A stretch of 64,000 nt of DNA from Pseudomonas sp. B6002 (lineage in GTDB: Bacteria; Pseudomonadota; Gammaproteobacteria; Pseudomonadales; Pseudomonadaceae). The stretch covers positions 160-64,159 of the forward strand of contig NZ_JACAOY010000017.1 of NCBI RefSeq assembly GCF_013385985.1, read 5' to 3'. The stretch's first letter is position 1; each line of letters begins with the position of its first letter. Made by a program: the position numbers and the translations under genes. Below are positions 15,282 through 35,414 of the stretch, piece by piece. The notes under the pieces were generated by a model that was given only the letters and a program-made list of their open reading frames with translations, ran no database searches and was not told where the DNA came from.

Positions 15282-15343
15282 ACCAAGCAAGCGCTTGGTT
15301 TGTAAACTCTCGACACAAGTTTTGACCCAAGCGCTTGCTTGGT
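15282..15343. promoter_or_regulatory. Paired AtuR operators between atuA and atuR
   Basis: The sequence shows two copies of CCAAGCGCTTGCTTGGT in opposite orientation: reversed at 15282-15298 and direct at 15327-15343, identical over 17 bp. Each has a perfect 10-bp palindrome CAAGCGCTTG (15288-15297 and 15328-15337) with centres 40 bp apart. This fits published work on P. aeruginosa, as I recall it, in which the TetR-type repressor AtuR binds two 13-bp inverted repeats in the atuR-atuA gap. The sites overlap where both divergent promoters must lie, implying repression and autoregulation. Confidence 0.88.
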
Positions 15344-15400
15344 TGGCGACCACGGCCTAAATTGCCGCCCAAGACGTCAGAAGCAGTGAAGGAGAGAGAC

Positions 15401-16024
15401 ATGGATGAGCACAAAGCCCTGCGGGTGATGCGCACCATGGTCGACGAAGGCCGTTTGACCGACCCTGACAGTGCGCGGGGCAAGTTGCTGCAAACCGCGG
15501 CCCACTTGTTTCGCAACAAGGGCTTTGAGCGCACCACGGTGCGCGACCTGGCCAGTGCGGTGGGCATTCAGTCCGGCAGCATCTTTCATCACTTCAAGAG
15601 CAAGGACGAGATCCTGCGGGCGGTGATGGAAGAAACCATCCACTACAACACCGCGATGATGCGTGCCTCGCTGGAAGAGGCTGCAGATGTGCGCGAGCGC
15701 GTGCTGGCGCTGATTCGCTGCGAGTTGCAGTCGATCATGGGCGGCAGTGGCGAGGCCATGGCGGTGCTGGTGTACGAGTGGCGTTCGTTGTCGGCCGAAG
15801 GCCAGGCGCAGGTGCTGGCGCTGCGCGATGTGTACGAAGCGCTCTGGCTGCAGGTGCTGGGCGAAGCCAAGGCGGCGGGCTATATCAAGGGCGATGTGTT
15901 TATCACCCGGCGCTTCCTGACCGGCGCCTTGTCCTGGACCACCACCTGGTTCCGCGCCCAAGGCAGCCTGACGCTTGAGGAGTTGGCCGAAGAAGCCCTG
16001 TTGATGGTTCTGAAAGCCGACTGA
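15401..16024 (+). CDS. atuR: TetR-family repressor AtuR
   Basis: This 207-residue TetR-type regulator has an N-terminal helix-turn-helix at about 26-70 (TTVRDLASAVGIQSGSIFHHF) preceded by an unusually long ~22-residue tail. The C-terminal two thirds is the variable ligand domain, expected to bind a terpenoyl-CoA intermediate and release DNA. It is divergent from atuA and faces the paired palindromes. AAGGAGAG just before the ATG at 15401 fixes the start; a frame extension to 15335 would overlap the operator. Confidence 0.88.
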   Translation: MDEHKALRVMRTMVDEGRLTDPDSARGKLLQTAAHLFRNKGFERTTVRDLASAVGIQSGSIFHHFKSKDEILRAVMEETIHYNTAMMRASLEEAADVRERVLALIRCELQSIMGGSGEAMAVLVYEWRSLSAEGQAQVLALRDVYEALWLQVLGEAKAAGYIKGDVFITRRFLTGALSWTTTWFRAQGSLTLEELAEEALLMVLKAD

Positions 16025-16117
16025 CGCGCAAGCTATTAATTTGGCGGTGGAAAGTTGTCTCGCCCGACAAAAACGCCTAGCTTATCGCCATCAATGTGTT
16101 GAACGGTGTGTGCCTCG

Positions 16118-16906
16118 ATGTTTTCGCCATGGCGGCTGGCTGCAGGACTAACTCTATGGGCACTGGGTACCGCGTGGTGGATGCCGGCTTCGGCTGCACA
16201 ATTGGTAAGGATTGGGGCGGCGCATTTTCCACCGTACACCGTACGCCCTGAGCAAGGCGCCGACACTGGTTTGTTGCCGCAACTGGTGGAAGCCCTGAAC
16301 GCCTTGCAGACTGACTACCAGTTTGTGCTGGTGCCCACTTCCATCCCGCGCCGCTTTCGTGATTTCGAGCAGGGCCGGGTCGACATGGCCATCTTCGAAA
16401 ACCCCGACTGGGGCTGGAAAGAGATTCCCCACACCAACGTCGACATGGGCCTGGAAGATGCCGAAATCTTCGTCGCCCAGCGCGAGCCCAATCGTGATCA
16501 AAGCTTCTTCGCCGACCTGACCGGCAAGCGCCTGGCGGTGTTCAGCGGTTATCACTACGCCTTCGCCAATTTCAACCCCGACCCCAAGTACATGGCCGAG
16601 CACTTCAACGCCACGTTGACCTATTCCCATGACAGCAATTTGCTGATGGTGGCGCGCGGGCGAGCCGATATCGCGTTGGTCACGCGTTCGTACCTGAGTG
16701 ATTTCATGGTGCGCAACGCGGACATGGCCGGGCAGTTCCTGGTGTCCGAGCGTATCGACCAGGTGTATCACCACTACGCGTTATTGCGGCCGAAGGCGCC
16801 GATCTCGGGGGAAGCGTTTTCCGCGTTGCTCAAGCGCTTGCGGGACAACGGGCAGATGCTGAAGATTTTCGAGCCGTATCGCATCGACGTGATGGCGACG
16901 CCCTGA
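16118..16906 (+). CDS. Periplasmic amino-acid-type solute-binding protein
   Basis: This ~262-residue secreted protein has a signal peptide (FSPWRLAAGLTLWALGTAWW, with cleavage after PASA) and a family 3 solute-binding fold (FPPYTVRPEQGADTGLLPQLVEAL, then RVDMAIFENPDWGW, and LTGKRLAVFSGYHY). No permease or ATPase gene is adjacent, so it is an orphan binding protein that may feed a distant ABC transporter or act as a sensor. An in-frame GTG at 16106 adds four residues; neither start has a strong ribosome binding site. The ligand cannot be read from sequence. Confidence 0.8.
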   Translation: MFSPWRLAAGLTLWALGTAWWMPASAAQLVRIGAAHFPPYTVRPEQGADTGLLPQLVEALNALQTDYQFVLVPTSIPRRFRDFEQGRVDMAIFENPDWGWKEIPHTNVDMGLEDAEIFVAQREPNRDQSFFADLTGKRLAVFSGYHYAFANFNPDPKYMAEHFNATLTYSHDSNLLMVARGRADIALVTRSYLSDFMVRNADMAGQFLVSERIDQVYHHYALLRPKAPISGEAFSALLKRLRDNGQMLKIFEPYRIDVMATP

Positions 16907-16927
16907 CAGAAACAACCCCTTCCAAAC

Positions 16928-17016
16928 TGTAGGAGCCGGCTTGCCGGCGATCGCGGTGTATCAGCGACATCTGTGCAACTGACCCACCGCTATCGCCGGC
17001 AAGCCGGCTCCTACAG
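16928..17016. repeat. REP doublet, GTAGGAGCCGGCTTGCCGGCGA type
   Basis: Inverted REP copies (CTGTAGGAGCCGGCTTGCC and its reverse complement ending CTCCTACAG) lie between the solute-binding protein gene and the convergent pvdS, where they may also help separate the two transcripts. Confidence 0.9.
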
Positions 17017-17028
17017 GTTCCTGGTGTC

Positions 17029-17580
17029 TCAGACCCGGCGCGCAAACGTATCGCTATGGCTGCCCGACACTTTGCGGCAGTGCACCAGTGCATCGCGGAT
17101 CATGAAGTTGACCAACGTCGGCGAGACGCCCAGTTCCTTGGCGATGTCCTTTTGCGGCACGCCGTGCAGGCGGTACATCTCGAACGCGTAGCGGGTGCGC
17201 TGGGGCAGCTCCGTCAGGGCGTCGGCGATGTTTTCCAGGGTGTTGAAATTGATGTGGGAGGTTTCCGGTGAAGCGCCGTGAATGACCACATTCAAGCCTT
17301 CCTCTTCCGTCCCGGAGTATTTGAGCTCCAGGGCTTGCTTGCGGTAGTGATCGATCGCCAGGTTGCGCACGATCTGGAACAGATAACTCAATTGGGCCTT
17401 GAACGATGAGGTGATAGTCGGCGCCGATTGCAGCCGGAAGTAGGCGTCCTGCACTACGTCTTCGGCACGGGAGCGGCACCCGGTAATGCGTGCCGCGATC
17501 TTCACCAGAATCAGTCGATTGTCGACGAATGCCTGAAGAAGCGGTGAGTCGCACCTGCCTGTGGTTACTTGTTCCGTCAT
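17029..17580 (-). CDS. pvdS: Iron-starvation ECF sigma factor PvdS
   Basis: This 183-residue extracytoplasmic-function sigma factor directs RNA polymerase to pyoverdine promoters. Region 2 is at about 15-85 (SRAEDVVQDAYFRLQS, then LFQIVRNLAIDHYRKQ) and region 4 at about 125-175 (LPQRTRYAFEMYRLHG, then KDIAKELGVSPTLVNFM). Length and sequence style fit PvdS/PbrA/PfrI of fluorescent pseudomonads, and the divergent pvdG-pvdL supports the call. The ATG at 17580 is chosen with AAGGTG 7 bases upstream; a GTG at 17589 also exists. A Fur box lies about 80 bp upstream, so iron represses it. No anti-sigma gene is next to it. Confidence 0.93.
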   Translation of the reverse strand: MTEQVTTGRCDSPLLQAFVDNRLILVKIAARITGCRSRAEDVVQDAYFRLQSAPTITSSFKAQLSYLFQIVRNLAIDHYRKQALELKYSGTEEEGLNVVIHGASPETSHINFNTLENIADALTELPQRTRYAFEMYRLHGVPQKDIAKELGVSPTLVNFMIRDALVHCRKVSGSHSDTFARRV

Positions 17581-17658
17581 GGAAATCACCTTGTCGCAAA
17601 AGAGGTTAGGGGAGGGCGTCCTTGCTGAGGCCTCCTACACATCGGGCAACAAATTATG

Positions 17659-17677
17659 CTTAATGATAATGATTGTC
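17659..17677. promoter_or_regulatory. Fur box upstream of pvdS
   Basis: The 19 bp CTTAATGATAATGATTGTC match the Fur consensus GATAATGATAATCATTATC at 15 of 19 positions by direct count. It lies 79 bp before the pvdS start, as expected for iron-repressed transcription of the sigma factor gene. Confidence 0.85.
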
Positions 17678-17747
17678 AAATGAGAAGGCGAACTAATCTT
17701 ATGCTTTCTTGTTCGGTGTGAACCACGTCTCACGCACCCCCGGCGAC

Positions 17748-17771
17748 TAATTATTTGCCGGTGCCGTCCGT
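17748..17771 (+). promoter_or_regulatory. Probable PvdS-dependent promoter (IS box) for pvdG-pvdL
   Basis: TAATT (17748-17752) is followed by exactly 16 bases and CGT (17769-17771). PvdS promoters are described as TAAAT-N16/17-CGT, so only one -35 base differs. The position, about 110 bp before pvdG and 60 bp before a short leader frame, is suitable. Confidence 0.6.
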
Positions 17772-17832
17772 TCTTCTGGGTGACAGGTCCGTTAGCAAAA
17801 CGGCCAAGGATCCGTACCCGCAGGAGAACGAA

Positions 17833-17886
17833 ATGGGTTTTTATCGTGCATACAGCGTGTTTCAGTTTGGAGTCGTCACGCGATGA
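17833..17886 (+). CDS. Putative 17-codon leader peptide coupled to pvdG
   Basis: An ATG at 17833 with a strong AGGAG six bases upstream opens a 17-residue frame ([17 protein letters not shown]). Its TGA stop overlaps the ATG of pvdG (ATGA at 17883-17886). The ribosome binding site here is better than the one directly before pvdG, so the short frame may deliver ribosomes to pvdG. Whether a peptide accumulates is unknown. It could also be chance, since the frame is so short. Confidence 0.45.
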
Positions 17887-18635
17887 CCACGCCGACTCGA
17901 CTGCGCCTGTTCTGCCTGCCCTATTCGGGTGCCAGCGCCATGGTGTACGCACGCTGGCGCCGAGTCCTGCCTGACTGGTTGCAAGTGTGCCCGCTGGAAT
18001 TACCCGGCCGTGGCATGCGCATGGATGAGCCCTTGCAGCGCGATATCAAGGCCTTGGCCGCGCAGCTCGCCGATGAAATCAGCCGCGACCTGGACGGCCC
18101 TTACGCGTTGTTCGGCCATAGCCTCGGTGGCCTGCTGGCGTTCGAATTGGCGCACGCGCTGAATGCACGCAACGTCCCCGCGCCATTGGCCTTGTTTGCG
18201 TCCGGCACTGCGGGCCCTGCGCGTCGTGACGTCAGCGAATACGCCGTCGAAAAAACCGACGAACAACTCGTCGCCCGACTGCGCGAACTGCAAGGCACCG
18301 CCGAAGAAGCCCTGGCCAACCCCGAACTGATGCAGTTGATGCTGCCGATCCTGCGCGCCGATTTCCTGCTGTGCGGCAGCTTCACCTATGGCGAGCGTGC
18401 GCCGCTGGGCATGCCGATCCATGTGTTCGGCGGCAAGCAAGACAGCGTGCGCGCCGACCAGTTGCTCGACTGGCAAATCGACGCCGCCAGTGGTTTCTCC
18501 CTCGATCTGTTCGACGGTCACCACTTCTTCCTTGTGCAGCACGAAAGCGCCGTGCTGCGTTGCCTACGCCGCTATGCCGACGAACACCTGGCCCGCTGGC
18601 GCAATGGCGCGGCGCGGCAACGTGTGGCCGGCTGA
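17883..18635 (+). CDS. pvdG: Type II thioesterase PvdG (pyoverdine editing)
   Basis: This 250-residue alpha/beta hydrolase is of the external thioesterase class that clears misprimed or stalled carrier domains of non-ribosomal synthetases. The nucleophile elbow is FGHSLGG with Ser80. The acid lies in GGKQDSV and the catalytic His in DGHHFFLV near residue 220. The N-terminal [11 protein letters not shown] is typical of the family. The gene sits immediately before pvdL in the same direction, 51 bp apart, and is divergent from pvdS. GGAG lies about 10 bases before the ATG, and a short upstream frame overlaps the start. Confidence 0.92.
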
Positions 18636-18686: not shown

Positions 18687-21600
18687 ATGATGGACGCCTT
18701 CGAACTCCCCCAAACGCTGGTCCAGTCCCTTCAACGTCGCGCCGCGCAGACCCCGGACAAGACCGCCCTGCGCTTCCTCGCCGACGCTGCCGAGCACAAC
18801 GTGGTGCTCAGCTACCGCGACCTGGACCAACGCGCCCGCACCATCGCCGCCGCCTTGCAGGCCAATGCGGATTTGGGCGACCGTGCCGTGCTGTTGTTCC
18901 CCAGCGGCCCGGATTACGTCGCGGCGTTCTTCGGTTGCCTCTACGCGGGCGTGATCGCGGTGCCGGCGTATCCGCCTGAATCCACGCGCCGTCACCATCA
19001 GGAGCGCCTGCTGTCGATCATCAGCGATGCCGAGCCGCGCCTGCTGTTGACCATCGCCAGCCTCGCCGAGGGCCTGTCGCAGATTGAAAATGCGCCCCCC
19101 GTCTTGAGCGTCGACAGCCTGGAAAATACCGGCGATTGGACTGGCCCGGTCCTGCACCCCGACGACATCGCCTTCCTGCAATACACCTCCGGTTCCACCG
19201 CCTTGCCCAAGGGCGTGCAAGTCAGCCACGGCAACCTGGTGGCCAACGAAGTGCTGATCCGTCGCGGTTTTGGCATCGACCTCAACCCGGACGACGTGAT
19301 CGTCAGCTGGCTGCCGCTGTACCACGACATGGGCCTGATCGGCGGCCTGCTGCAACCGATCTTCAGCGGCGTGCCGTGCGTGTTGATGTCGCCGGCCTAC
19401 TTCCTCGGCCGGCCGTTGCGCTGGCTCGAAGCGATGAGTGAATACGGCGGCACCATCAGCGGCGGCCCGGATTTCGCCTACCGCTTGTGCAGCGAGCGGG
19501 TCAGCGAGTCGGCCCTCGAGCGCCTGGACCTGAGCCATTGGCGCGTGGCTTATTCCGGCTCCGAGCCGATCCGCCTCGACACCCTGGAACGCTTCGCCGA
19601 GAAGTTCGCCACCTGTGGGTTCACCCCGAACAACTTCTTCGCTTCCTACGGCCTGGCCGAGGCCACTTTGTTTGTGGCCGGTGGTACCCGTGGCCACGGC
19701 ATCCCGGCACTGCGTGTTGATGAGCACGCCCTGGCCGCCAACCGCGCTGAACCGGGGCAGGGCAGTGCGATCATGAGCTGCGGCACCAGCCAGCCGGACC
19801 ATGCGGTGCTGATCGTCGACCCCCACACTCTCACGGAACTGGCCGACAACAGCGTCGGCGAACTCTGGGCTACTGGCCCGAGCATCGCCCACGGCTACTG
19901 GCGCAACCCCGAGGCCACCGCCAAGACCTTCGTGCAACACGCCGGCCGCACCTGGCTGCGCACGGGCGACCTGGGCTTTATCCGCGAGAGCGAGGTGTAC
20001 ATCACCGGCCGCTTGAAAGACCTGCTGATCGTGCGCGGCCACAACCTCTACCCGCAGGACATCGAGCAGACCATCGAGCGCGAAGTGGAAGTGGTGCGCA
20101 AGGGCCGTGTCGCGGCATTTGCCGTGAATGACCAGGGCCTGGAAGGCATCGGCATCGCCGCTGAAATCAGCCGCAGCGTGCAGAAAATCCTGCCACCCGA
20201 AGCGCTGATCAAGGCGATCCGCCAAGCCGTGGCCGAGGCCTATCAAGAGGCGCCAAGCGTGGTGGTGTTGCTCAACCCCGGCGCGCTGCCCAAAACCTCC
20301 AGCGGCAAGGTGCAACGTGCGGCCTGTGCCCTGCGCCACGCCGATGGCAGCCTCGACAGCTACGCGCAGTTCCCCGGCCTGCAAGCGCACGCTGGCGACG
20401 CAGCGCTGGAATCCGAATTGCAGAGCCAGATCGCAGCGATCTGGTGCGAGCAACTGCACGTGGCAACGGTCGCGGCGGATGATCACTTCTTCCTGCTCGG
20501 CGGTAACTCCATCACCGCCACCCAAGTCGTGGCGCGCCTGCGCGAGACCCTCGGCCTGGAGCTGAACCTGCGCATGCTGTTCGAAGCCCCGACCCTGCAA
20601 GGTTTTACCGCCAGCGTCGCGCAATTGCAGCAGGACGGCGGCGTCGCCCAAGGCGCGATCCATGCCTTGTCGCGCCAGGACGAACTGCCCCAATCCCTGG
20701 CACAGAACCGTCTGTGGATCACCTGGCAACTGGACCCGCAGAGCAGCGCCTATACCATTCCCGGTGCCCTGCGCCTGCGCGGTGAGCTGGATGAAGACGC
20801 CGTGCGCGCCAGCTTCCAACACCTGATCGAGCGCCACGAAGCGCTGCGCACACGCTTCTATGAGCGAGACGGCCAGGCGTTCCAGCGAGTCGACGCAACC
20901 ACCGGATTCGACCTGCAAGTCATCGACCTCAGCGACCTGCCCGCCGCCGAGCGTGAGGCCCGCGCGCAACAGATCCGCGAGGACGAAGCACGCACCCAGT
21001 TCGACCTGGAAAAGGGCCCGCTGCTGTGGGTGACCCTGGTGCGCCTGGACGATGAAGAGCACCAGCTGCTGGTGACGCTGCACCACATCATCGCCGACGG
21101 CTGGTCGCTGAACATCCTGATCGACGAATTCTCCCAGCTGTACGCCGCTGCCACCCAAGGCCAACGCCTGGAGCTGCCGGCACTGGCCCTGCAGTACGCC
21201 GACTACGGCAGTTGGCAGCGCCAATGGCTGGCTGAAGGCGAGGGCCAGCGTCAACTGGCGTACTGGAAAGCGCAGTTGGGCGATGAGCATCCAACGCTCA
21301 GCCTGGCCACCGACCATCCGCGCTCGGCACAACACCGCCGCAGTGCCGAACGCCACACCGTGCGCCTGGGCGCGAGCCTCAGCGAAGCCATTCGCCGGAC
21401 CGCCCAGGCCAACGAGTCCACGCCGTTCATGCTGTTGTTGGCGGCGTTCCAGAGCCTGCTCTATCGCTACAGCGGCCAGCGTGATATCCGCATCGGCGTG
21501 CCCAATGCCAACCGTCCGCGCCAGGAAACCCAAGGCCTGGTCGGCTTTTTCATCAATACGTTGGTGTTGCGTGCCGAGTTGGACGGGCGCCTGCCGTTCA

Positions 21601-24600
21601 CTGAGCTGCTGACCGCAACCCGCCGAGCAGCGCTGGGGGCCCAGGCTCACCAGGACCTGCCGTTCGAACAACTGCTGGAAGCCTTCCCCCAAGCTCGCGA
21701 GCAAGGCCTGTTCCAGGTCATGTTCAACCACCAGCAGCGCGACTTGAGCGCCTTGCGCCGTCTGCCCGGCATGCTCGCCGACGAGCTGCCGTGGCACAGC
21801 CGCGAAGCCAAGTTCGACCTGCAACTGCACACCGAAGAGGACCGCAACGGGCGCCTGAGCCTGTCGTTCGACTACGCCGATGAACTGTTCGAAAAGGCGA
21901 CCATCCAGCGCCTGGCCGAGCACTATATCAACCTGTTGCAGGCCGTCTGCGAGCAACCCCGGCAAGCCATCGGCGACCTGGTGCTGATGCCGCACGACGA
22001 ACAGGCGCGTTACAGCGAAGCCCCCTGCGCGCCGGCCCAACAGTGGTTGCCCGAACTGCTCAACCAGCAGGTCTCGGACAACACCGCGCTGGTCTGGGAT
22101 GGCGGCAGCCTGACCTTCGCCCAACTGCACACCCAGGCCAACCGACTGGCCCATTACCTGCGCGACAAAGGCGTCGGCCCGGACGTGTGCGTGGCCATCG
22201 CCGCCGAGCGTTCGCCGCAGTTGTTGATCGGCTTGCTGGCGATCATCAAGGCCGGTGGCGCCTACGTACCGCTGGACCCGGATTACCCCGCCGACCGCCT
22301 GGCCTACATGCTCAAGGACAGCGGCGTGCACCTGCTGCTGACCCAGACCGCGTTGCTGGAACACCTGCCGACAGCCGAGGGCGTTTGCGTCATCGCCATG
22401 GACAGCCTGCACCTCGATAGCTGGCCGACCCAGGCCCCCGGCCTGCACCTGGATGGCGACAACCTTGCCTATGTGATCTACACCTCCGGCTCCACTGGTC
22501 AACCCAAAGGCGTGGGCAACACCCATGGCGCCTTGGCCGAGCGTTTGCAGTGGATGCAAGCCACGTATCAACTCAACGACACCGACGTGCTGATGCAAAA
22601 GGCGCCGATCAGTTTCGACGTGTCGGTGTGGGAATGCTTCTGGCCACTGATCACCGGTTGCCGCCTGGTACTCGCTGGCCCGGGTGAACACCGTGATCCG
22701 CACCGCATCGCGCAATTGGTGCAGGAACATGGCGTGACCACCCTGCACTTTGTGCCACCGCTGTTGCAGCTGTTTATCGATGAGCCGCTGGTGGCTGAAT
22801 GCACCAGCCTGCGCCGCCTGTTCTCCGGCGGTGAAGCCTTGCCCGCTGAGTTGCGCAACCGCGTGTTGGCGCAGTTGCCGGCGGTGCAATTGCACAACCG
22901 CTATGGCCCGACCGAAACCACGATCAATGTGACCCATTGGCACTGCACCGCCGCAGATGGCGAGCGCTCGCCGATTGGCCGCCCGCTGGGCAATGTGATC
23001 TGCCGCGTGCTGGATGAGCAGCTCAACCCCGTGCCGCTGGGCGTGCCGGGCGAGTTGTGCATCGGCGGTATCGGCCTGGCCCGGGGTTACCTGGGGCGCG
23101 CCGGGTTGACCGCCGAGCGTTTTGTCGCCGACCACCAGGGCGCGCGCCTGTATCGTACCGGTGACCGTGCCCGTTGGACGGCCGATGGGGTTATCGAGTA
23201 CCTCGGCCGCCTCGATCAGCAGGTCAAGTTGCGTGGCTTCCGGGTGGAGCCGCAAGAAATCGAAGCGCGCATGCTGGCCCTGGACGGCATCGCCCAGGCC
23301 CTGGTGCTGGTGCGTGATGCGCAACTGATCGGTTACTACACCGCCCACACCGAGCGGGATGAAGCCGATGTAAAAACCGCCCTGGCTGCCGAACTGCCGG
23401 AGTACATGGTGCCCGCGTTGTTGATGCGCCTGGACAGCATGCCCCTGAGCCCCAGCGGCAAGCTCGACCGCCGTGCGTTGCCCGAGCCCGTGTGGCAAAC
23501 CCGCGAGCACATCGAGCCCGAAACGCCGTTGCAACAGCAGATTGCTGCGATCTGGCGTGAAGTTCTCGGCGCGCCGCGCATCGGCCTGCGCGATGACTTC
23601 TTCGCCTTGGGCGGGCATTCGTTGCTCGCCACCCAGATCATCTCCCGCACCCGCCAGGCGTGCGATGTGGAGCTGCCGCTGCGCACCCTGTTTGAAGCCA
23701 GCGAACTGGGCGCCTTTGCCGAGCAGGTCGGGCAGATCCAGGCCTCGGGCCAGCGCAACCAGCAAAGCGCAATCGCCAAAGTCGACCGCCGCCAGCCTGT
23801 GGCGTTGTCCTATTCCCAGCAGCGCATGTGGTTCCTCTGGCAGATGGAGCCGGACAGCCCGGCTTACAACGTGGGCGGCATGGCGCGCCTGCGCGGCGTG
23901 CTCGACGTGGGCCGCTTCGAGGCCGCGTTGCAAGCGTTGATCATGCGCCACGAAACCCTGCGCACTACCTTCCCGAGCGTGGATGGCGTGGCGTACCAGA
24001 AGGTCTCGCCACAGACCGGCCTGCGCATGGACTGGCAGGACTTCTCGGCATTCAACGAAACCGAGCGCCAGCAGCGCCTGCAGCAACTGGCCGATCACGA
24101 GGCCCACACCCCGTTCAACCTGGAAACCGGGCCACTGCTGCGCGCTTGCCTGGTCAAGGCCGGCGAGCAGGAACACTACCTGGTGCTGACCCTGCACCAC
24201 ATCGCCACCGAAGGCTGGGCCATGGACATCTTTGCCCGTGAACTCAGCGCGCTGTACGAAGCCTTCATCGACGAGCGCGACTCGCCGCTGGCGCCGTTGC
24301 CGGTGCAGTACCTTGACTACAGCGTGTGGCAGCGTCAGTGGCTGGAGTCTGGCGAACGCCAGCGCCAACTCGACTATTGGACGCAGCAGTTGGGCAACGA
24401 ACACCCGCTGCTGGAACTGCCCGGCGACCGCCCACGGCCACCGGTGCAAAGCCACCAGGGCGAGCTGTACCGCTTTGACTTGAGCGATGACCTGGCCGCC
24501 CGCGTGCGTGCCTTCAATGCCGAGCGCGGCCTGACCTTGTTCATGACCATGACCGCCACCCTGGCCGTGTTGCTCTACCGCTACAGCGGCCAGACTGACC

Positions 24601-27600
24601 TGCGCATCGGCGCCCCGGTAGCCAACCGTATCCGCCCGGAAAGCGAAGGGCTGATCGGCGCGTTCCTCAACACCCAAGTGCTGCGTTGCCAGCTCAATGG
24701 GCAGATGAACGTCGGCGAGTTGTTCGAGCAAGTGCGTCACACCGTCATCGAGGGCCAGTCCCATCAAGACCTGCCGTTCGACCACTTGGTGGAAGCCCTG
24801 CAACCGCCGCGTAGCGCAGCGTACAACCCGCTGTTCCAGGTGATGTGCAACGTGCAGCGCTGGGAATTCCAGCAAAGCCGGCAACTGGCGGGCATGACCG
24901 TCGAGTACCTGGCCAACGATGCCCGCGCCACCAAGTTCGACCTCAACCTGGAAGTCACCGACCTCGACCATCGCCTGGGTTGCTGCCTGACTTACAGCAC
25001 CGACCTGTTCGACGAGCCGCGCATTGCACGCATGGCCGAGCATTGGCGCAACCTGCTGGAAGCGCTGATCGCCGATCCGCACCAGCGACTCAGCGAACTG
25101 CCGTTGCTCACCGTCGTCGAGCAACACGCGTTGCAAGACAGCCTGGGTATCGAAAAGGGCGAGCATCGCCTCGACCAGTGCATTCATCAGCTGTTCAGCC
25201 AACAGGCCGCAGCCCGTGGCGATGCCCCTGCACTGACCTTTGCCGGCGCTACCCTCAGCTACCGCGAACTGAACGAACGCGCCAACCGCCTGGCCTGGAT
25301 GCTCCGCGAGCGTGGCGTCGGCCCGCAGGTGCGTGTCGGCCTGGCGTTGCCGCGTTCCCTGGAAATGGTCGTCGGCCTGCTGGCGATCCTCAAGGCCGGT
25401 GGCGCCTACGTGCCGCTGGACCCGGAATACCCGCTGGACCGCCTGCACTACATGATCGAAGACAGCGGCATTGGCCTGCTGCTCAGCGACGCGGCAATGT
25501 TCGAAGCCCTCGGTGAATTGCCGGCGACGGTGGCGTGCTGGTGCCTGGAAGATGACCTGCCGGTGCTCGCTAACTACCCGTCGGATGAGCTGCCGTTTAT
25601 CAGCTTGCCGCAACACCAGGCGTACTTGATCTACACCTCCGGCTCTACCGGCAAACCGAAAGGCGTGGTGGTGGCCCACGGTGAGATCGCCATGCACTGC
25701 GCGGCAGTGATCGAGCGCTTCGGCATGCGCGCGGACGACTGCGAGTTGCACTTCTATTCGATCAACTTCGATGCCGCCACCGAGCGTTTGCTGGTGCCGT
25801 TGCTCAGCGGTGCCCAGGTGGTATTGCGCGCCCAGGGCCAGTGGGATGCCGAGGAAATCTGCGGGCTGATCCGCACCCATCGCATCAACATTCTGGGCTT
25901 CACACCCAGCTACGGCAGCCAGTTGGCGCAATGGCTGGCGACCCAGCAACAGACCTTGCCGGTGCGCATGTGCATCACCGGTGGCGAAGCACTGACTGGC
26001 GAACACTTGCAGCGCATTCGTGCGGCGTTCCTGCCCGAGGTGTTCTTCAATGCCTATGGTCCGACGGAAACCGTGGTCATGCCGCTGGCCAGCCTGGCGC
26101 CCGAGCAACTGGAAGAGGGCGCTGGCAGCGTGCCGATCGGCAGCATCATCGGCGACCGCGTGGCCTATATCCTCGACGCCGACCTGGCGCTGGTGCCCCA
26201 AGGCGCGACCGGCGAGCTGTACGTCGGCGGCGCGGGTTTGGCCCAGGGTTATCACCAACGCCCGGGCATGACGGCCGAGCGTTTTGTTGCTGACCCGTTC
26301 GCCCATGACGGCGGGCGCCTGTACCGCACCGGTGACCTGGTGCGCCAGCGCGCCGATGGCTTGGTGGAGTACCTGGGGCGGATCGACCATCAGGTGAAGA
26401 TCCGTGGTTTCCGCATCGAGCTGGGCGAGATCGAAACCCGTCTGCTGGAGCACGAAGCCGTGCGTGAAGCGGTGGTGCTGGCGCTGGATTCGCCGAGCGG
26501 CAAACAGCTGGTGGCGTACCTGGTCAGCGATGCCGAGCACGGCGCGCTGCGTGACGCACTGAAGGCTCATCTCAAGGCGCAACTGCCGGACTACATGGTG
26601 CCCGCGCACCTGATCGTACTCGACAGCATGCCGCTGACCGCCAACGGCAAACTCGACCGCCGTGCCTTGCCGCAACCGGACCCGGAGGCCAACCGTCAAC
26701 AGTACGTGGCTCCGCGCAATGAACTGGAAAGCACGTTGGCCGCCATCTGGTGCGCAGTGTTGAACGTGCAGCAAGTCGGCCTGGACGATAACTTCTTTGA
26801 ACTGGGCGGCGACTCGATCCTGTCGATCCAGGTGGTCAGCCGTGCGCGGCAGGCGGGTATTCACTTCAGCCCCCGTGACCTGTTCCAGCACCAGACCGTG
26901 CAAACCCTCGCCGCCGTTGCCACGCGCACCGAGCAAGTCACGGCGGAGCAGGGCGTGCTCACCGGCCGCTCGGGGCTGACGCCGATCCAGCATTGGTTCT
27001 TCGACACCGAGATCCCGAACCGCCAGCACTGGAACCAGGCGCTGTTGCTCAAGCCGTTGCAACTGCTCGACCCACATCGCCTGGAGCAAGCGCTGCTGGC
27101 GGTGCTGGAGCACCACGATGCCCTGCGCCTGAGCTTCACCTCGCGTGATGCGCATTGGCACGCCGAACACTTGGCCGTACCGCAAGGTGGCGTGCTGATG
27201 CAGGCGCAAGTGCGCGACATGGCTGATTGCACCGCGCTGTTCACCGACACCCAACGCAGCCTCGACCTGGAACACGGCCCGCTGTTGCGCGCCTTGCTGG
27301 TGGACGGTCCCGAGGGCCAGCAACGCCTGCTGATTGCGATTCATCACCTGGTGGTGGACGGCGTGTCCTGGCGTGTGTTGCTGGAAGACCTGCAAAACGT
27401 CTATCGCCAATTGAGCGACGGCCAGTCCGTCAGCCTGCCAGCCAAGACCAGTGCGCTACGCGATTGGGCCGCCCGCTTGCAGGCCTATGCCGGCAGTGAA
27501 TCCCTGCGTGAAGAGTTGAGTGTGTGGCAACACCAGTTGGCCGGGCCTGACGCGGCATTGCCGGTGGCGCGCCCGCAAGGCTCGCTGCGCAATCGCGATG

Positions 27601-30600
27601 CCGACACGGTGAGCGTGCGCCTGGGCATCGAACCTACCCGGCAGTTGCTGCAACAGGCGCCGAGCGCGTATCGCACCCAGGTCAACGACCTGCTGCTGAC
27701 CGCCCTGGCCCGTGTGCTGTGTCGCTGGAGCGGCCATGCGTCGGCGCTGATCCAGCTGGAAGGCCACGGCCGCGAAGCGCTGTTCGATGACATCGACCTG
27801 ACCCGCAGCGTCGGCTGGTTCACCAGTGCTTACCCGCTGCGCCTGACGCCGCACGCCGGGCAGGGCGACTCGATCAAGGCGATCAAGGAGCAACTGCGCG
27901 GCGTGCCGCACAAAGGCTTGGGGTATGGCGTGCTGCGTTACCTCGCGGAGGAGGGGGTCAAGCACGCCATGGCGGCGTTGCCGACGGCAGGCATTACCTT
28001 CAACTACCTCGGCCAGTTCGACCAGAGCTTCGGCAGTGATGCGCTGTTCCACCCGCTGGACGAATCCGCAGGCCTGGCCCACGACCCCGATGCGCCGCTG
28101 CCCAATGAGTTGAGCGTCGACAGCCAGGTGTACGGCGGCGAGCTGGTGCTGCGCTGGACCTTCAGTCGCGAGCGCCACGATCAACACACCATCCGTGAAC
28201 TGGCCGACGCGTACCTGGCCGAGTTGCAAGGCCTGGTTGCCCATTGCCTGCAGGACGAGGCCGGTGGCCTGACGCCGTCCGACTTCCCACTGGCACACCT
28301 GACCCAGCCGCAACTGGATGCATTGCCGGTACCGGCCGCCGTCATCGAAGACGTGTACCCGCTGACCCCGATGCAGGAGGGCCTGTTGCTGCATACCTTG
28401 CTGGAACCGGGCACCGGCCTCTATTACATGCAGGATCGCTACCGCATCAACAGTGCCCTGGACCCCGAGCGTTTCGCCCAGGCCTGGCAGGCGGTGATCG
28501 CCCGTCACGAAGCCCTGCGCGCGTCGTTCTGCTGGAACGTCGGCGAAGACATGTTGCAAGTGATCCATAAACCGGGCAGTACGCCGATCGAATACCTGGA
28601 TTGGAGCAACGACCCGGAAAGCGAACAGGAACCGCGTCTGCAAGCCTTGCTCAAGGCCGAGCGCGAAGCCGGGTTCGATCTGCTCAACCAGGCGCCGTTC
28701 CACCTGCGCCTGATCCGCGTCGGTGCCGAGCGCTACTGGTTCATGATGAGCAACCACCACATCCTCATCGATGCCTGGTGCCGTTCGTTGCTGATGAACG
28801 ATTTCTTCGAGATCTACAGGGCCCTCGGCGAAGGCCGCGACGCGCAGTTGGCCACGCCGCCGCGCTATCGCGACTACATCGCTTGGCTGCAACGCCAGAA
28901 CCTCAATGAAGCGCGCCAGTGGTGGCAGCAGAACCTGCAAGGCTTCGAGCGCACCACGCCGATCCCGAGTGACCGGCCATTCATGCGTGACCACGCGGGT
29001 CACGGCGCCATGGTGGTGGGCGACTGCTACACCCGCCTCGATGCCCGTGACGGTGCGCAACTGCGTGAGCTGGCCCAGGCTCACCAACTGACGGTCAACA
29101 CCTTCGCCCAGGCGGCATGGGCCTTGGTGCTGCGTCGCGTGAGCGGTGATCGCGACGTGCTGTTTGGCGTGACCGTGGCCGGGCGCCCGGTGGAAATGCC
29201 CGAGATGCAGCGCACCGTCGGCCTGTTCATCAACAGCATCGCATTGCGGGTGAAGCTGCCCGAGGACGATCAACCCTGCAGCGTGCGCCAGTGGTTGAGC
29301 AGCCTGCTCGACAGCAACATGCAGTTGCGCGAGTACGAATACCTGCCGCTGGTGACCATTCAGGAGCACAGCGAACTGCCCAAGGGCCAGCCGCTGTTCG
29401 ACAGCCTGTTTGTGTTCGAAAACGCCCCGGTGGAAGTCTCGGTGCTGGACCATGCACAAAGCCTGAATGCCACCTCGGACTCCGGCCGCACCCACACCAA
29501 TTTCCCGCTGACCGCCGTGTGCTACCCGGGCGATGACCTGGGCCTGCACCTGTCCTATGACCAGCGCTATTTCGACGAAACCACCGTGCAAGGCATGCTC
29601 GCTGAGTTCAAGCGCTTGCTGTTGGCGCTGGTGCAGGGCTTCCATGGCGACATGGCCGACCTGCCGTTGATTGGCGAACAGGAACGCGCGTTCCTGCTGG
29701 ACGGCTGCAACCAGAGCGAACACGCCTACCCGCTGGAACGCAGCTACATCGCGCTGTTCGAAGAGCAGGTGGCCGCGCATCCGCACCGCATCGCCGCCAG
29801 TTGCCTGGACCAGCAGTGGACCTATGACGAACTCAACCGCCGCAGCAACGGCCTGGGCCACGCACTGATCGCAGCGGGTGTCGGCCTGGACCAACCGGTG
29901 GCCTTGCTGGGCGAGCGTAACCTCGACCTGCTGGGCATGATTATCGGCAGCTTCAAGGCCGGTGCCGGCTACCTGCCGCTGGACCCGGGCCTGCCGAGCC
30001 AGCGTCTGCGCAGCATCATCGACTTGAGCCGCACGCCGCTGCTGGTGTGCACCGAGGCATGCCGCGAGCAAGCCATCGAGCTGCTGGACGGTTTCGACTG
30101 CCAGTTGCTGGTGTGGGAAGAAATCCCGGCGCGTGGCGAGAACCCTGGCATCTACAGCGGCCCGGACAACCTCGCCTATGTGATTTACACCTCCGGCTCC
30201 ACTGGTCTGCCCAAGGGCGTGATGGTGGAGCAGCGCGGCATGCTCAATAACCAGTTGAGCAAGGTGCCGTACCTGGACTTGAGCCCGGTGGACGTGATCG
30301 CGCAGACCGCCTCGCAAAGCTTTGATATTTCCGTGTGGCAGTTCCTCGCTGCGCCGCTGTTTGGCGCACGGGTGGACATCGTGCCGAACACCCTGGCCCA
30401 TGATCCCCAGGGCCTGCTGGAACATGTGCAGGCCCAGGGCATCACGGTGCTGGAAAGCGTACCGTCGCTGATCCAGGGCATGTTGGCCCAGGACCGTGTC
30501 GGCCTGGACGGTCTGCGCTGGATGCTGCCGACCGGTGAGGCGATGCCGCCTGAATTGGCGCACCAGTGGTTGCTGCGTTACCCGGAGATTGGGCTGGTGA

Positions 30601-31565
30601 ACGCTTATGGTCCTGCGGAATGCTCGGATGACGTGGCGTTCTTCCGCGTCGACCTGGCCTCTACCCGTGGCACTTACCTGCCGATCGGTACACCGACCGA
30701 CAACAACCGTTTGTACCTGCTCGATGGCGCACTGGAGTTGGTGCCGCAAGGCGCCGTGGGTGAGGTGTGCGTGGCGGGCACCGGCGTCGGTCGCGGTTAT
30801 GTCGGCGACCCGTTGCGCACGGCGCCGGTGTTTGTGCCGAACCCGTTCGGCGCACCGGGTGAGCGGCTGTATCGCACCGGCGATTTGGCGCGCCGTCGCA
30901 GCGACGGCGTGCTGGAGTACGTCGGGCGTGTCGACCATCAGGTGAAGATTCGCGGTTACCGCATCGAACTGGGTGAAATCGAAGCGCGCCTGCATGAGCA
31001 ACCGGAAGTCCGGGATGCGGCGGTGGGCGTGCAGGAAGGCGTCAACGGCAAGCATCTGGTCGGCTATCTGGTGGCGGCGGATGAAGCATTGAACCCAAGC
31101 GAACGCCTGGACCGCATCAAGCAGCGCCTGCGTGCCGAATTGCCGGAATACATGGTGCCGCTGCACTGGCTATGGCTCGACCGCCTGCCGCTCAACGCCA
31201 ACGGCAAACTCGATCGCAAGGCGCTGCCGGCCCTGGAGATCGGCCAGTTGCACTGCCAGGACTACCTGGCGCCGCGCAACGAACTGGAAACCACCTTGGC
31301 TGCGATCTGGGCTGAAGTGTTGAAAGTGGAGCGGGTTGGGGTGCAGGACAACTTCTTCGAACTGGGCGGGCATTCGTTGTTGGCCACGCAAATTGCCTCG
31401 CGGGTACAGAAGACGTTGCAGCGGGATGTGCCGCTGCGGGCGATGTTCGAGTGCAGCACGGTGGCGGAGTTGGCCGAGTACATCGATGGGTTGGCGGCCA
31501 ATGAGATCAGTGCCGAGAAGGTGGATCGGTTGAGTGATCTGATGGCGGAGTTGGAGGGGTTGTAA
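18687..31565 (+). CDS. pvdL: Pyoverdine chromophore synthetase PvdL
   Basis: This 4292-residue non-ribosomal peptide synthetase begins pyoverdine assembly. Domains in order, by motif (residues approximate): acyl-CoA-ligase-like (1-560; [11 protein letters not shown] at 166); carrier 1 (Ser608); condensation (HHIIADG at 800); adenylation A1 (core at 1265); carrier 2 (Ser1645); condensation (HHIATEG at 1837); adenylation A2 (core at 2316); carrier 3 (LGGDS, Ser2710); epimerisation ([10 protein letters not shown] at 2886); condensation (HHILIDAW at 3357); adenylation A3 (core at 3834); carrier 4 (Ser4230). There is no thioesterase, so the chain passes to another synthetase. In known PvdL the modules load a fatty acid, L-Glu, D-Tyr and L-Dab. 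Here the single epimerisation domain follows module 3, as expected for D-Tyr, and the A3 pocket reads like Dab. The start MMDAFELP matches the known protein. Confidence 0.97.
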
Positions 31566-31715
31566 ATCTACCATTGATCGGAAAAGGCAGTGTTTCCGGT
31601 CGGACCTGTCAGTTCTCACAGTTGGCGAAGGCGTGCTTCAAGAGCTCACTTCAGGAGGAAGCCCTGGGCCTTTATCGGGCTCGGGCATTCCCTCTTCGAA
31701 CACGGAGTTCTTACC

Positions 31716-34397
31716 ATGGCTAAAAAGATTTCAACACCTGAAGCGCGATCGGCCATTGCCAAAGCACCACACAAAAAAAACGCGAAGCCCAAGGCGCTGG
31801 AGGTTGAAAGCCCATCAATCTCCAGTGAGTTGGAGGGTGTTGTTGAACCCTCGCGAATGGAGGGGAGTTACCTGACTGTCGATCCACGTATGGATGGCGG
31901 ACCGATCACCGTCCACTTCAGCACAAAAGAACGGCCTGGACCGACGTTTGAAGACATCCTGGACGACAGCGACGAGCCGGGTGCCAGGAACATTCATATT
32001 CCACTGGTCTACCTGACGACCGCCATGGGGTTCACGCTGCTGGTGTCCTATGAGGGGACATCACAGGGGCAGCCTGCTGCTTCGCGAGTTAAGGAATTCG
32101 GGGTTTCGTTCTACCCGGCCAGCGAAAGCGAAGACCTGGCGCCTCGGCTGCTGCACGAAAAAATCGTCCACAACACCCCGACTTACGACATGCATGACCA
32201 CGCCGGGGATGAAACAGTGCTTGTGCCTGTCCCTCTTCTGGCCAAAAAGGGTGACAAGGTTTATTGCACGGCTGTCACTGAGCAGGACGCTATTCCCTAC
32301 ACTTTTTATACCGTGGTGTATGGCCACGTGTTAACGGAGGAAGAGGCCGTCGCCGGGCACGTACTCAAATTCTTTATAGCCCGTGGCTGGCTGGCACGCC
32401 GCAAGCCCTGGCGCTCCATCACCCTTCAATCTGCCTGGATAACCAGCGGTTTGGCGGCCGAGCCCCCGGCTGATATCGACCCTCACCTTGAGACGCGCCT
32501 GCCGGCCAACGCCCTCGAAATCCAGCGCCGTCGCACGGCTGCGTTGATCGTTGATCATGGGTTGGACCTGCTGCCTCCTCATCTGCGGCAGTCTGTGCAA
32601 TACAACGGTGGATGGTGCCTTAACCCCGAACTCACCAAGGCTGGCGGGAACGTTGACGTTCCCGGCTTCGACAGTTATGCCGACGATGTCGTCTGTTTTC
32701 ATGTCAGTGGTCCAGGTTTTGGCACGAAGCCTCTTGGCTGCGTGACAATTGAGCAGGACGGCGACCTTGCTTCAATTGAGCTCTCGGCGTGTGACATTGC
32801 CTGTTTCTTCGGTAAAACGATGACGCTGGGCTACACAGTTCAATTTCCCAATAGCGAAGGGTCGCAGCCATCACCAGAGCAGAGCGTTAACGTTTCAGTG
32901 CCCCAGCTCCCTCATTCCGATATTGAGGAAGCCACTCAAGGGACGGTGGACCTTGTTACATTCTCGGGGAATGCCACGGCCCTGGTGCCGGTGTGGAGCT
33001 ATGCCGAGTGCTCAAATCGTTGTTGGATGTGGTTGATAGGTAAGCGCGCAGAGGGGGGAACCTCCCGGTTCGATATTCTAACGAGCGAGCCCGTGACGGA
33101 TGAATGGAAAAACAAAGGGGTTGAAGCGTTTGTTTTGAGGGCTGAACTGCAGAAGCTCGACGATTGCAGCGTGTTTGAACTGCATTTCGCGGCAGGTTTT
33201 TGTGACACCACTGATTTGGCGGGAGCCCATGAATTCCCTGTTCAGACGTTCGAGATCGAACAGGAGCCTTTGGTGCTGCTTGCGCCTAAGGTGACTGAGG
33301 CGGTCGGCTCGGACTTGACCGCCTACAACGGGCGCAATGGCGTGCATGTCGAAGTGAATTACGTCGGCAATGATCCGCGCCACAGCATCAGCGTCTGCTG
33401 GAAAAAACCGGACGGTACTTGCTGGCCATTGGCATCAAAACCCGGCAGTAACACCGCAAGTGTCGTCTTCACGCTGCCTGCGGAAGCGGTGATCGAAAGC
33501 ATGGGCAAGACCGTCCCGATTACGTACACCGTGACAACCGCGTGCAAACTGCAGACGTCGCTGCCGTTGAACTTGGATATCACCTTGCCGGTACGGCTGG
33601 AAACCCCCAACGTGTTGGAGGCCACACCGCCCAGGACTCAGAACGCCGTTCTGGACCTGAGGGCGTTTGCCGGAAATGCCAATTCCCTTGAGGATCCGAT
33701 GTGGTTTCTGCGGGCCGGGCAGAAGTGCTGGTTGTACGCTACCGGTACTGGGGTAAATGGCTCCCCTTACACGTTCACTGTCTATGCGGGTAGAGCTATT
33801 ACTGCGACGGAGGCGACAGCTGGGGTGGCGGGCCCTGTACTGCGCACGGAGTTGTCCAAGTTGAGGAGCAACAGCTCGTTAACCTTGACATTCAAGGTGA
33901 CACCCGACGGCAGCTTGAATGAGAGCAATGCGGTGGTATGCCCTCCGCGAGTATTGACAGTGCGTTTGCCATTGGATGATTTCACTACCTTTTCCGGTAA
34001 CAACTGGAACGGCTGGCTCCCCGGGCCTGCGTCTTTGGGGGAGATGAGATACGCCTCGTACTTTGGCAAGCCTTGCGTGGCGAATGGGACAGCAAGTACT
34101 GCTGCGGTGGGCAATGTTCTTTATAAAGACTTTACCGGGCTTTTGGTCGGTGCGACCTATGAGTTCAGCATTCTTGCCTGCACCTATAACGGCGCTGCTC
34201 CATTGCCAAGATTGTCGCTGAGAGCCGGGACTGGGGCTGTAACGGCAGTCACAACCTTTTATTACATGGCGTGGACACCACTGAAGGGAACGTTTGTTGC
34301 GAATGCAACATCCATGCGACTAGAGATCTGGAGTCATGAATCGACGGGTATTTCTGGCAATGACTATGCGATCACTGATATTCGGGTTCGTGGATAG
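31716..34397 (+). CDS. Large beta-repeat protein of unknown function, inserted after pvdL
   Basis: I do not recognise this 893-residue protein. After a Lys/Ala-rich N-terminus (1-40, no signal peptide) there appear two alternating ~100-residue Ig-like repeat types. Type A has a Cys/Trp strand, then a VT-x2-E turn and a closing F-x-L/T-F strand (around 178, 432, 667). Type B ends in GKT-x4-YTV (around 365 and 596). Residues ~753-893 form a different beta-rich domain (FTTFSGNNWNGW, then VLYKDFTGLLVGATYEF) resembling carbohydrate-binding jelly rolls. GGAG lies 8 bases before ATG 31716. Codon use is visibly less GC-rich than in pvdL. A terminator and a fragment of the pvdL 3' end follow. A surface adhesin or secreted binding protein is possible, but export is unexplained. 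Confidence 0.75.
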   Translation: MAKKISTPEARSAIAKAPHKKNAKPKALEVESPSISSELEGVVEPSRMEGSYLTVDPRMDGGPITVHFSTKERPGPTFEDILDDSDEPGARNIHIPLVYLTTAMGFTLLVSYEGTSQGQPAASRVKEFGVSFYPASESEDLAPRLLHEKIVHNTPTYDMHDHAGDETVLVPVPLLAKKGDKVYCTAVTEQDAIPYTFYTVVYGHVLTEEEAVAGHVLKFFIARGWLARRKPWRSITLQSAWITSGLAAEPPADIDPHLETRLPANALEIQRRRTAALIVDHGLDLLPPHLRQSVQYNGGWCLNPELTKAGGNVDVPGFDSYADDVVCFHVSGPGFGTKPLGCVTIEQDGDLASIELSACDIACFFGKTMTLGYTVQFPNSEGSQPSPEQSVNVSVPQLPHSDIEEATQGTVDLVTFSGNATALVPVWSYAECSNRCWMWLIGKRAEGGTSRFDILTSEPVTDEWKNKGVEAFVLRAELQKLDDCSVFELHFAAGFCDTTDLAGAHEFPVQTFEIEQEPLVLLAPKVTEAVGSDLTAYNGRNGVHVEVNYVGNDPRHSISVCWKKPDGTCWPLASKPGSNTASVVFTLPAEAVIESMGKTVPITYTVTTACKLQTSLPLNLDITLPVRLETPNVLEATPPRTQNAVLDLRAFAGNANSLEDPMWFLRAGQKCWLYATGTGVNGSPYTFTVYAGRAITATEATAGVAGPVLRTELSKLRSNSSLTLTFKVTPDGSLNESNAVVCPPRVLTVRLPLDDFTTFSGNNWNGWLPGPASLGEMRYASYFGKPCVANGTASTAAVGNVLYKDFTGLLVGATYEFSILACTYNGAAPLPRLSLRAGTGAVTAVTTFYYMAWTPLKGTFVANATSMRLEIWSHESTGISGNDYAITDIRVRG

Positions 34398-34424
34398 TCA
34401 AAGCCCCCTTTTGCCTTTAACGAT

Positions 34425-34453
34425 GCTCCTGCCTTTTGGCAGGAGCTTTTTTT
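34425..34453 (+). terminator. Rho-independent terminator after the beta-repeat gene
   Basis: A perfect 9-bp stem GCTCCTGCC / GGCAGGAGC with a TTTT loop is followed by seven T. It ends the transcript of the 893-residue gene 28 bp after its stop. Confidence 0.95.
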
Positions 34454-34480
34454 CATGCAGGCCCTCAAAATCATTCCCGG

Positions 34481-34545
34481 TGAAATCAGTGCCGAGAAGT
34501 GGATCGGCCGAGGGATCTGATGGCGGAGTTGGAGGGGCTTTAATC
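34481..34545 (+). pseudogene. Relic of the pvdL 3' end (partial duplicate)
   Basis: This segment repeats the last ~65 bp of pvdL (31502-31568) with about nine changes including single-base gaps. Identical blocks include ATCAGTGCCGAGAAG, GATCTGATGGCGGAGTTGG and AGGGG before the stop. A one-base deletion after GAGAAG shifts the frame, so it is not translated as the synthetase tail. The two copies bracket the 893-residue gene as imperfect direct repeats, pointing to insertion or duplication at the end of pvdL. Confidence 0.9.
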
Positions 34546-34562
34546 TTCACTGCCTGTCAGAG

Positions 34563-34636
34563 CGCTATCGCCAGCAAGCCGGCTCCTACAGTGGGAACGC
34601 GTTTCACCTGTAGGAGCCGGCTTGCCGGCGATGGCG
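34563..34636. repeat. REP doublet, GGAGCCGGC type, outward arrangement
   Basis: Here the left unit reads CGCCAGCAAGCCGGCTCCTACAG and the right CTGTAGGAGCCGGCTTGCCGG, so the 5' ends of the units meet in the centre, opposite to most doublets in this window. It lies just before the convergent end of dsbG. Confidence 0.88.
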
Positions 34637-34652
34637 TCTGCCTGGACGCCGC

Positions 34653-35414
34653 TTATTTCGGCCCGAGGATCTTCACCAACTTATCCGGCGACGGTGCCCC
34701 TTGCTGTTGCTGCAAGCCACCCTTGTCATCCAGGTAGAAAATCGCCGGCGTCGCCGACAATTCCAGCTCATCCATCAACTTCATGTTGGCATCGAGTTTG
34801 GCTTCGATATCGGCCGGGATCTTGTCCAGTGCCTGCAACTTGCTGCCTTTGCCGGCGGCTTCGTGTTCTTCCAGGGCTTTTTGCGGGTCTTTGGCGGCGA
34901 ACAGCGCGGCGGATTTGCCTGGGCTGTCTTCGCGGATGATGCCGACCATGATGTGGCGCAACTGCACCTTGCCGGCCTTCACCCACGGGCGGGCCTGTTC
35001 CCAGAACATGTTGCAGTAGGGGCAGTTGGGGTCGCTGAACAGGTAGACGATGCGTGGCGCGTTTTTGTCGCCGTCCTGGATCCAGCTGCTTTTTTCCATC
35101 TTGGCCCAGACTTCCTTGGCCATCGGCGCGTACACCAGTTTTTCCAGGGGCGCGCTGCTCAGGTCATTGCCCTGGGCGTCGTACAGGTTGCCGGCGATCA
35201 CGTTTTTACCGTCGGCGGTCAGGTACAGCGCCATGCCACGGTTCTGGTATTGCGCGGCGTAGCCAGTGAGGCCGCTGGGCGCGTCGAATTTACCGAGGAT
35301 CTTGGCACCCTTGGCCTCGATCTGTTTGATCGGAGCAGGCCACTCTTCGGCCTGGGCCAGGGTGGCCGCGAGCGTCAGCGGCAGCGAGATCAGCAGGTGG
35401 CGGAGGCTTGGCAT
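34653..35414 (-). CDS. dsbG: Periplasmic thiol:disulfide interchange protein DsbG
   Basis: This 253-residue DsbC/DsbG-type protein has a signal peptide (cleavage after AQA at 22) and an N-terminal dimerisation region. A thioredoxin fold carries the active site C131-P-Y-C134 in DPNCPYCNMFW, with the cis-proline in ATPAIFY. Such proteins protect single cysteines or isomerise disulfides in the periplasm, kept reduced by DsbD. The start at 35414 overlaps the end of the membrane thioredoxin gene by 25 bp. It is last in the dsbD-tlpA/dsbE-dsbG operon and mirrors P. aeruginosa PA2476. Confidence 0.92.
   Translation of the reverse strand: MPSLRHLLISLPLTLAATLAQAEEWPAPIKQIEAKGAKILGKFDAPSGLTGYAAQYQNRGMALYLTADGKNVIAGNLYDAQGNDLSSAPLEKLVYAPMAKEVWAKMEKSSWIQDGDKNAPRIVYLFSDPNCPYCNMFWEQARPWVKAGKVQLRHIMVGIIREDSPGKSAALFAAKDPQKALEEHEAAGKGSKLQALDKIPADIEAKLDANMKLMDELELSATPAIFYLDDKGGLQQQQGAPSPDKLVKILGPK

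Follow-up and report, generated by a model that had tools for sequence, protein, structure and literature searches.

Here we describe the region between pvdL and dsbG in a 64,000-nucleotide stretch of DNA (hereafter the window) from Pseudomonas sp. B6002 (contig NZ_JACAOY010000017.1 of assembly GCF_013385985.1). The two genes meet tail to tail, and the gap between them holds a gene for an 893-residue protein with its own leader and terminator-like hairpin, together referred to as the cassette, followed by a second, damaged copy of the pvdL 3' end and an intergenic sequence with a pair of repetitive extragenic palindromic (REP) hairpins (Table 1). A preliminary description of this DNA had noticed the repeated pvdL end and proposed that the cassette had entered at the pvdL terminus. 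Below, Pseudomonas loci holding dsbG carry L-numbers and genomes G-numbers.

Table 1. Features of the pvdL-dsbG region, in window coordinates
Feature	Position	Strand	Basis
pvdL, 4292 aa, left flanking gene	18687..31565	+	open reading frame (ORF) list; name as in the preliminary description
Copy 1, current intact pvdL 3' end	31502..31565	+	98.4% identical to the pvdL end of L023
Cassette leader	31566..31715	+	best match is the leader of the L023 cassette allele
Palindrome-like site CTGTCAGTTCTCACAG in the leader, possible operator	31606..31621		sequence; operator role putative
Cassette gene, 893 aa, lysine-rich N-terminus, repeat modules	31716..34397	+	ORF and translation
C-terminal domain resembling the C-terminal lectin domain of EclA (PDB 6YF6)	33960..34394	+	phmmer; family profile
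Terminator-like hairpin and T-run closing the cassette allele	34425..34453	+	inverted repeat I5; resembles the right ends of other cassettes
Seam spacer	34454..34480		without dsbG signal
Copy 2, probable decaying pvdL 3' end remnant of another allele	34481..34543	+	alignment
Empty-site type intergenic sequence, probably of the second allele	34544..34652	+	best full-length match is empty site L106
REP-type hairpin pair	34563..34636		inverted repeats; genome count of the unit
dsbG, 253 aa from the chosen ATG, right flanking gene	34653..35414	-	DsbC_N and thioredoxin-like Pfam matches

The cassette gene has the foreign composition that had been suspected, with a GC content at third codon positions of 62.8%, compared with 82.5% for pvdL and 81.1% for dsbG. 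The genome contains 598 copies (314 + 284, at most one mismatch) of the 24-base unit of the REP hairpins and none of its reversed control. A decayed piece of dsbG at 34455-34480 was considered and is not supported, as 295/500 shuffles score as high against the dsbG 3' end.

The repeat of the pvdL end is real. The terminal 64 nt of pvdL, closing with the stop codon at 31563-31565, recur in the 63 nt of copy 2 with 57/64 positions identical, the two copies differing by six substitutions and one base missing from copy 2. Their local alignment scores 91, and the same query scores at most 27 elsewhere on both strands (window positions 1-18600, 31566-34470 and 34560-64000, with pvdL itself left out), which rules out a chance repeat. 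The starts reported earlier for the two copies, 31502 and 34481, stand, but the bases past each stop are not part of the repeat, which ends at 31565 and 34543; the 893-residue gene and its terminator lie between the copies as first described. Because a search of the whole genome with an 89-base pvdL tail (E ≤ 0.001) returned no third place besides copies 1 and 2, no tail of another nonribosomal peptide synthetase gene was found as a better source of copy 2, an alternative that had been raised at the outset.

The two sides of the window interval resemble different alleles. On the left, the pvdL end is continuous with the leader, and copy 1 and the adjoining leader match the cassette allele of L023 (leader score 219, against 74 for the next match and at most 28 for empty sites), the alignment running from the pvdL end across the leader and through about two thirds of the gene. 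On the right, the 109 bases at 34544-34652 find their best full-length match in the empty site L106 (79.3% identity over 111 columns), and the window from copy 2 into dsbG aligns to L106 as a single piece of 936 columns at 91.1%. The six substitutions between the copies were compared with 99 other pvdL tails. Two of them lie close to the stop, and there copy 2 carries the most frequent letter (58/99 and 55/99 tails) and copy 1 a rarer one (38/99 and 32/99); at two further bases the letter of copy 2 is present in 0/99 and 1/99 tails, and at the remaining two its letters are in the minority (11/99 and 16/99). Near-unique letters and a missing base are as expected for a sequence without selection. 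Since empty-gap-like sequence, including the REP hairpin, follows it, copy 2 is best read as a decaying remnant of the pvdL end of a different allele, and the window interval reads as an L023-like cassette allele spliced in front of an L106-like empty allele. The preliminary description had supposed that the insertion regenerated or duplicated the pvdL end. An intact pvdL does adjoin the insert, but copy 2 is not a simple copy of the current end, as it has letters of other alleles and an empty-site sequence behind it.

Matches to dsbG, present in 322 of the 399 Pseudomonas genomes searched, served to locate the gap in relatives; the last 180 residues of pvdL also retrieve the neighbouring gene in relatives. 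Named loci were fetched with dsbG (the best 80 of 332), and 48 extra stretches were added from genomes with a dsbG match at least 85% identical. Both ends were present in 133 of the 158 loci scanned, and these, with the window, made 134 intervals, reduced by merging identical ones to 100 distinct intervals, which are not necessarily independent, some coming from close relatives. The 25 loci with no pvdL end in reach were 10 of the 80 named loci, 13 short loci replaced by longer stretches, the window's own short locus L103, and L167.

As in a hotspot, content varies between the same two core genes: the 100 distinct intervals, among them that of the window, comprise 31 empty ones, 47 carrying the gene family of the window and 22 with other content, which makes 69 occupied. 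By length, 31 are ≤170 bp, 9 are 171-1000, 19 are 1001-2700, 26 are 2701-3300 and 15 are longer. The empty gaps measure 60-169 bases between the pvdL and dsbG stops, and most of those inspected by eye are built round a REP-like hairpin. Among the other cargo, Pfam identified an alpha/beta hydrolase in L101 and, in L154, a GH18 enzyme next to an LPMO_10 protein. Intervals L160, L152 and L027 also hold a GH18 enzyme, judged by sequence likeness and not by Pfam. Four intervals of 0.8-0.9 kb (L028, L032, L061 and L040) have GAGTACATATCCGTT-like inverted ends with little coding sequence and look like non-autonomous elements. The single-copy empty sites and the different cargo expected of an insertion site thus both exist. 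The accessory landing zone proposed earlier is the whole tail-to-tail gap, at the edge of a siderophore gene and not inside a siderophore locus. Judged from these comparisons, the gap in related Pseudomonas species is highly active, gaining, losing and accumulating lectin-like genes and others.

Composition from two alleles is seen directly in the alignments, and it recurs in relatives, where broken ends of the flanking genes lie inside occupied intervals. Remnants were scanned for with each locus's own flanks (10/69 positive) and with pooled flanks (10/69 positive). After removal of artefacts, both scans agree on remnants of a flanking gene in 9/69 occupied intervals (window, L186, L063, L031, L045, L072, L058, L192 and L157), compared with 0/69 in either scan after shuffling. 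A pvdL piece is present in four of these, the window, L186, L063 (where it was detected with pooled flanks only) and L031, and a dsbG piece in 8 of the 9. The pvdL remnants extend 25, 64 and 199 nt from the stop, and that of L031 144 nt with further pieces to about 990. L186, L063 and L031 contain both remnants, in the order dsbG' then pvdL', primes denoting truncated ends.

The clearest case is L186. Its front is 91.0% identical to L183 over 3864 columns, which begin in pvdL, span the cassette and take in 73 bases of dsbG, and its rear consists of pvdL' followed by a gap 99.2% identical to the empty gap of L068; on these alignments, two alleles meet in L186, a cassette allele like that of L183 and an empty one like that of L068. 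Behind pvdL' in L063 comes a stretch that shares 88.8% identity with the L060 leader over 125 columns. By a count made by eye, 13 intervals hold two or three family genes, and 5 of the 13 have a seam.

Other candidate remnants were set aside. That of L151, from the own-flank scan, was a 21-base inverted match, and that of L150, from the pooled-flank scan, belongs to dsbG itself, read in two pieces; the L150 gene (genome G380) matches in two pieces and may be broken in that assembly. The L035 candidate, absent from both remnant scans, was left uncounted, with a score of 35 where the best of 500 shuffles reached 33. By eye, the left ends of L062 and L048 looked Dsb-like, and neither remnant scan gave a match there. 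In L045, a dsbG end is duplicated at interval positions 45-149 in a cassette-free gap, which reads as two empty alleles stacked.

The sequences present alleles end to end with outer flanks intact and inner ends broken. Such stacks were very probably formed by homologous exchange anchored in one flank with an illegitimate join at the other end. In this mechanism, small cassettes would be exchanged at the tail-to-tail gap in the P. fluorescens group: complete alleles, each made up of a pvdL end, a cassette or REP and a dsbG end, would pass from strain to strain through homologous recombination within the flanking genes. Where one end was homologous and the other illegitimate, the incoming allele would come to lie next to the resident allele; the outer flanking genes would remain intact, and the truncated inner ends, dsbG' then pvdL', would mark the seam and then decay. 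L186, L063 and L031 each have continuous pvdL on the left and the dsbG'/pvdL' seam on the right, that is, one homologous end and one illegitimate junction. The window stack would consist of the cassette allele in front and the empty REP allele behind, with pvdL' (copy 2) at the seam. The route is deduced from its products, and the pieces would lie in the same order if a circularised fragment had entered by single crossing-over in place of one-ended joining; integration of circles by single crossing-over has been reported for linear DNA in E. coli, according to the available portion of PMC3240628.

Several observations weigh against this interpretation. The majority of occupied intervals (60/69) contain no remnant, and need two-sided replacement, erosion or another route; they could reflect two-sided exchange at flanking core genes, as described in the accessible text of PMC5635113, or seams that have eroded. 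The family label changes 23 times on a quickly built tree of the dsbG region, at least 12 of the changes being forced by starred branches, and it is clustered (shuffled mean 33.6 changes, 0/500 as low as 23). Because of this clustering, part of the cassette distribution is due to descent, and the tree is itself drawn from a flanking region that may recombine. Despite the clustering, the changes on the tree indicate that the cassette family has come or gone many times. In the case of the window, the nearest row of the tree, L023, has the same front allele without the second tail, which could mean either a gain in the window or a loss in L023. Finally, the window seam is less complete than those of L186, L063 and L031, because it lacks a dsbG remnant.

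The strongest rival is a variant of the same mechanism with the direction reversed, in which the cassette was resident in the window and the empty allele entered anchored in dsbG, joining illegitimately behind the cassette terminator. This comes close to an even chance, as it yields the same final structure and L023 is a single allele sharing the leader and the first third of the gene. Nothing decisive stands against it; in L063, the rear of the two alleles is the one that most resembles a near relative (L060), which suggests front entry in L063 without fixing the direction in the window. Local tandem duplication within one lineage, with no incoming DNA, also predicts the order dsbG' then pvdL', but we regard it as improbable, since each half is a distinct allele with a single-allele counterpart in other species: a cassette and a REP-type empty site in the window and in L186, and two different genes in L063.

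The preliminary description had named site-specific integration at a gene 3' end, beside recombination, as a likely route. On this view a small element would have integrated at the end of pvdL and regenerated the gene end, as at tRNA genes. The gene is unbroken and copy 2 does end precisely with the stop codon, but this explanation is now very improbable, because the remnant lengths given above define no constant attachment length, dsbG remnants adjoin the pvdL remnants in 3/4 cases, and the sole long ORF of the window interval gave no integrase match in Pfam, NCBIfam or PHROG. The scan for mobile-element genes covered that ORF, with no Pfam or PHROG match, the short and mostly antisense ORFs lying outside it; a Pfam scan of 7 more of the 90 ORFs listed for occupied intervals (the window's included) found no recombinase. 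Insertion by a transposon or by REP sequences is the least probable of all: the REP pair does adjoin copy 2, and some other intervals do hold repeat-bounded, mostly noncoding pieces, but REP-like hairpins are ordinary in the inspected empty sites, the long ORF has no Pfam transposase match, and no short target duplication or terminal repeat was seen in the inspected cassette ends, where no dedicated search was run. In preferring recombination over transposition, the preliminary description is upheld.

The cassette gene is a mosaic. Compared with L023 in 80-base steps, it is 82-98% identical to about position 32485 and then 60-79% as far as compared, and its last ~300 bases match other alleles, L077 and L157, at about 80%. 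The 893-residue protein matched no Pfam, NCBIfam, PHROG or PADLOC family, and an Rfam search gave nothing informative. Two of its repeat modules are clearly alike (30/84 identical) and a third resembles one of them (29/96), other module pairs being marginal or no better than shuffles. The first ~60 residues contain no strongly hydrophobic stretch, with a highest 12-residue mean of 0.38; the same value ranges from 0.49 to 2.17 in the long family ORFs, taken with start codons as listed, not curated.

The C-terminal 145 residues align over query 1-145 to chain 1-144 of PDB 6YF6 (phmmer E 2.8e-14; family profile E 3.9e-15), which is the fucose-binding C-terminal domain of EclA according to the available text of PMC11875179. 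Among 65 family ORFs, 35 have this EclA-like C-terminus, 19 have that of L023 and 11 have neither by these queries. A [GE]ND[FYW] stretch lies within the last 40 residues in 26/35 proteins of the EclA-like class. When the window protein is aligned by eye with the EclA contact residues given in that part of PMC11875179, the Gly-Asn-Asp stretch and one Thr match and the Ser differs. The same portion of the paper notes that similar Pseudomonas proteins outside P. aeruginosa are annotated 'carbohydrate-binding protein'. The window protein is thus like EclA in the sequence of these 145 residues, and unlike EclA, as characterized there, in that its domain is joined to repeat modules and not to a LecA domain. 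A sugar-binding role is likely for the cassette protein, as predicted from these resemblances.

The palindrome in the leader accompanies the gene family. A site with at most two mismatches to CTGTCANNTCTGACAG is found in 47/47 family-bearing intervals and in 1/22 others (L036), the 22 family-free intervals serving as the control in place of a shuffled one; the L101 interval has a site with 3 mismatches. The exact palindrome occurs in 13/38 genomes (13/25 Pseudomonas, 0/13 of other genera; reversed pattern, 0). In the window genome, with at most one mismatch, it occurs 6 times forward and 4 times reverse, and the reversed pattern 1 and 0 times. Literature searches on the palindrome sequence and on Ig-like proteins, lectins and regulons gave nothing relevant.

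Additional occurrences of the palindrome were seen in other settings. The L036 interval has a cassette-like leader with the palindrome at 54-69 and no ORF of 120 residues or more, and is possibly a cassette minus its gene. At L141 (G000:C29:21000-40000), palindromes lie directly upstream of two large proteins, one of 1111 residues at 3830-7283 with weak similarity to the family (E 3.7e-8), the other of 673 residues at 12141-14271, lysine-rich and without a family match; a dispersed palindrome regulon is possible in that genome. In G004, contigs C1, C4 and C11 have the leader palindrome at bases 231-257, near the contig start, which suggests that these leaders are repeated in the genome and break the assembly.

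Taken further, and only tentatively, the gap may house an ordered, integrase-free cassette array. The palindrome would control lectin-like genes that share leaders and carry exchangeable C-terminal domains, serial one-ended additions would leave datable seams of broken flanks, and intragenic recombination would swap modules to yield a strain-specific sugar-binding repertoire.

The process described here is of a known kind; the site was found undescribed, a literature search with thin coverage of subscription journals having found no paper that mentions both pvdL and dsbG and, among the papers listed, none with a title or opening of the abstract on the pvdL-dsbG gap, and its seams are unusually readable. 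One-ended recombination in nature is otherwise mostly inferred from gene order, and here, because broken core-gene ends mark the seams, the route is readable, and in principle datable, in several species at one small locus. The gap is thereby a natural test site for integrase-free gene addition, and it points to a large family of predicted lectin-like proteins. The gap resembles the exchange hotspots without mobile elements described in 2017 (PMC5635113, from the text available) in having variable content between the same two core genes, no mobile element seen, and exchange ascribed to the flanks. It differs in that the model given there is double recombination, whereas seams with flank remnants record one-ended events. 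The nearest parallel for such events is in the effector-immunity arrays of the Vibrio cholerae type VI secretion system, for which homology-facilitated illegitimate recombination has been proposed (PMC5361080, in the portion accessible). In those arrays, as in the pvdL-dsbG gap, one end is anchored and the other illegitimate, the older module is displaced but kept, and serial arrays result. Unlike those arrays, as far as that portion describes them, the pvdL-dsbG cargo consists of lectin-like or other genes and not effector-immunity pairs, and the marks left behind are the broken 3' ends of both flanking core genes.

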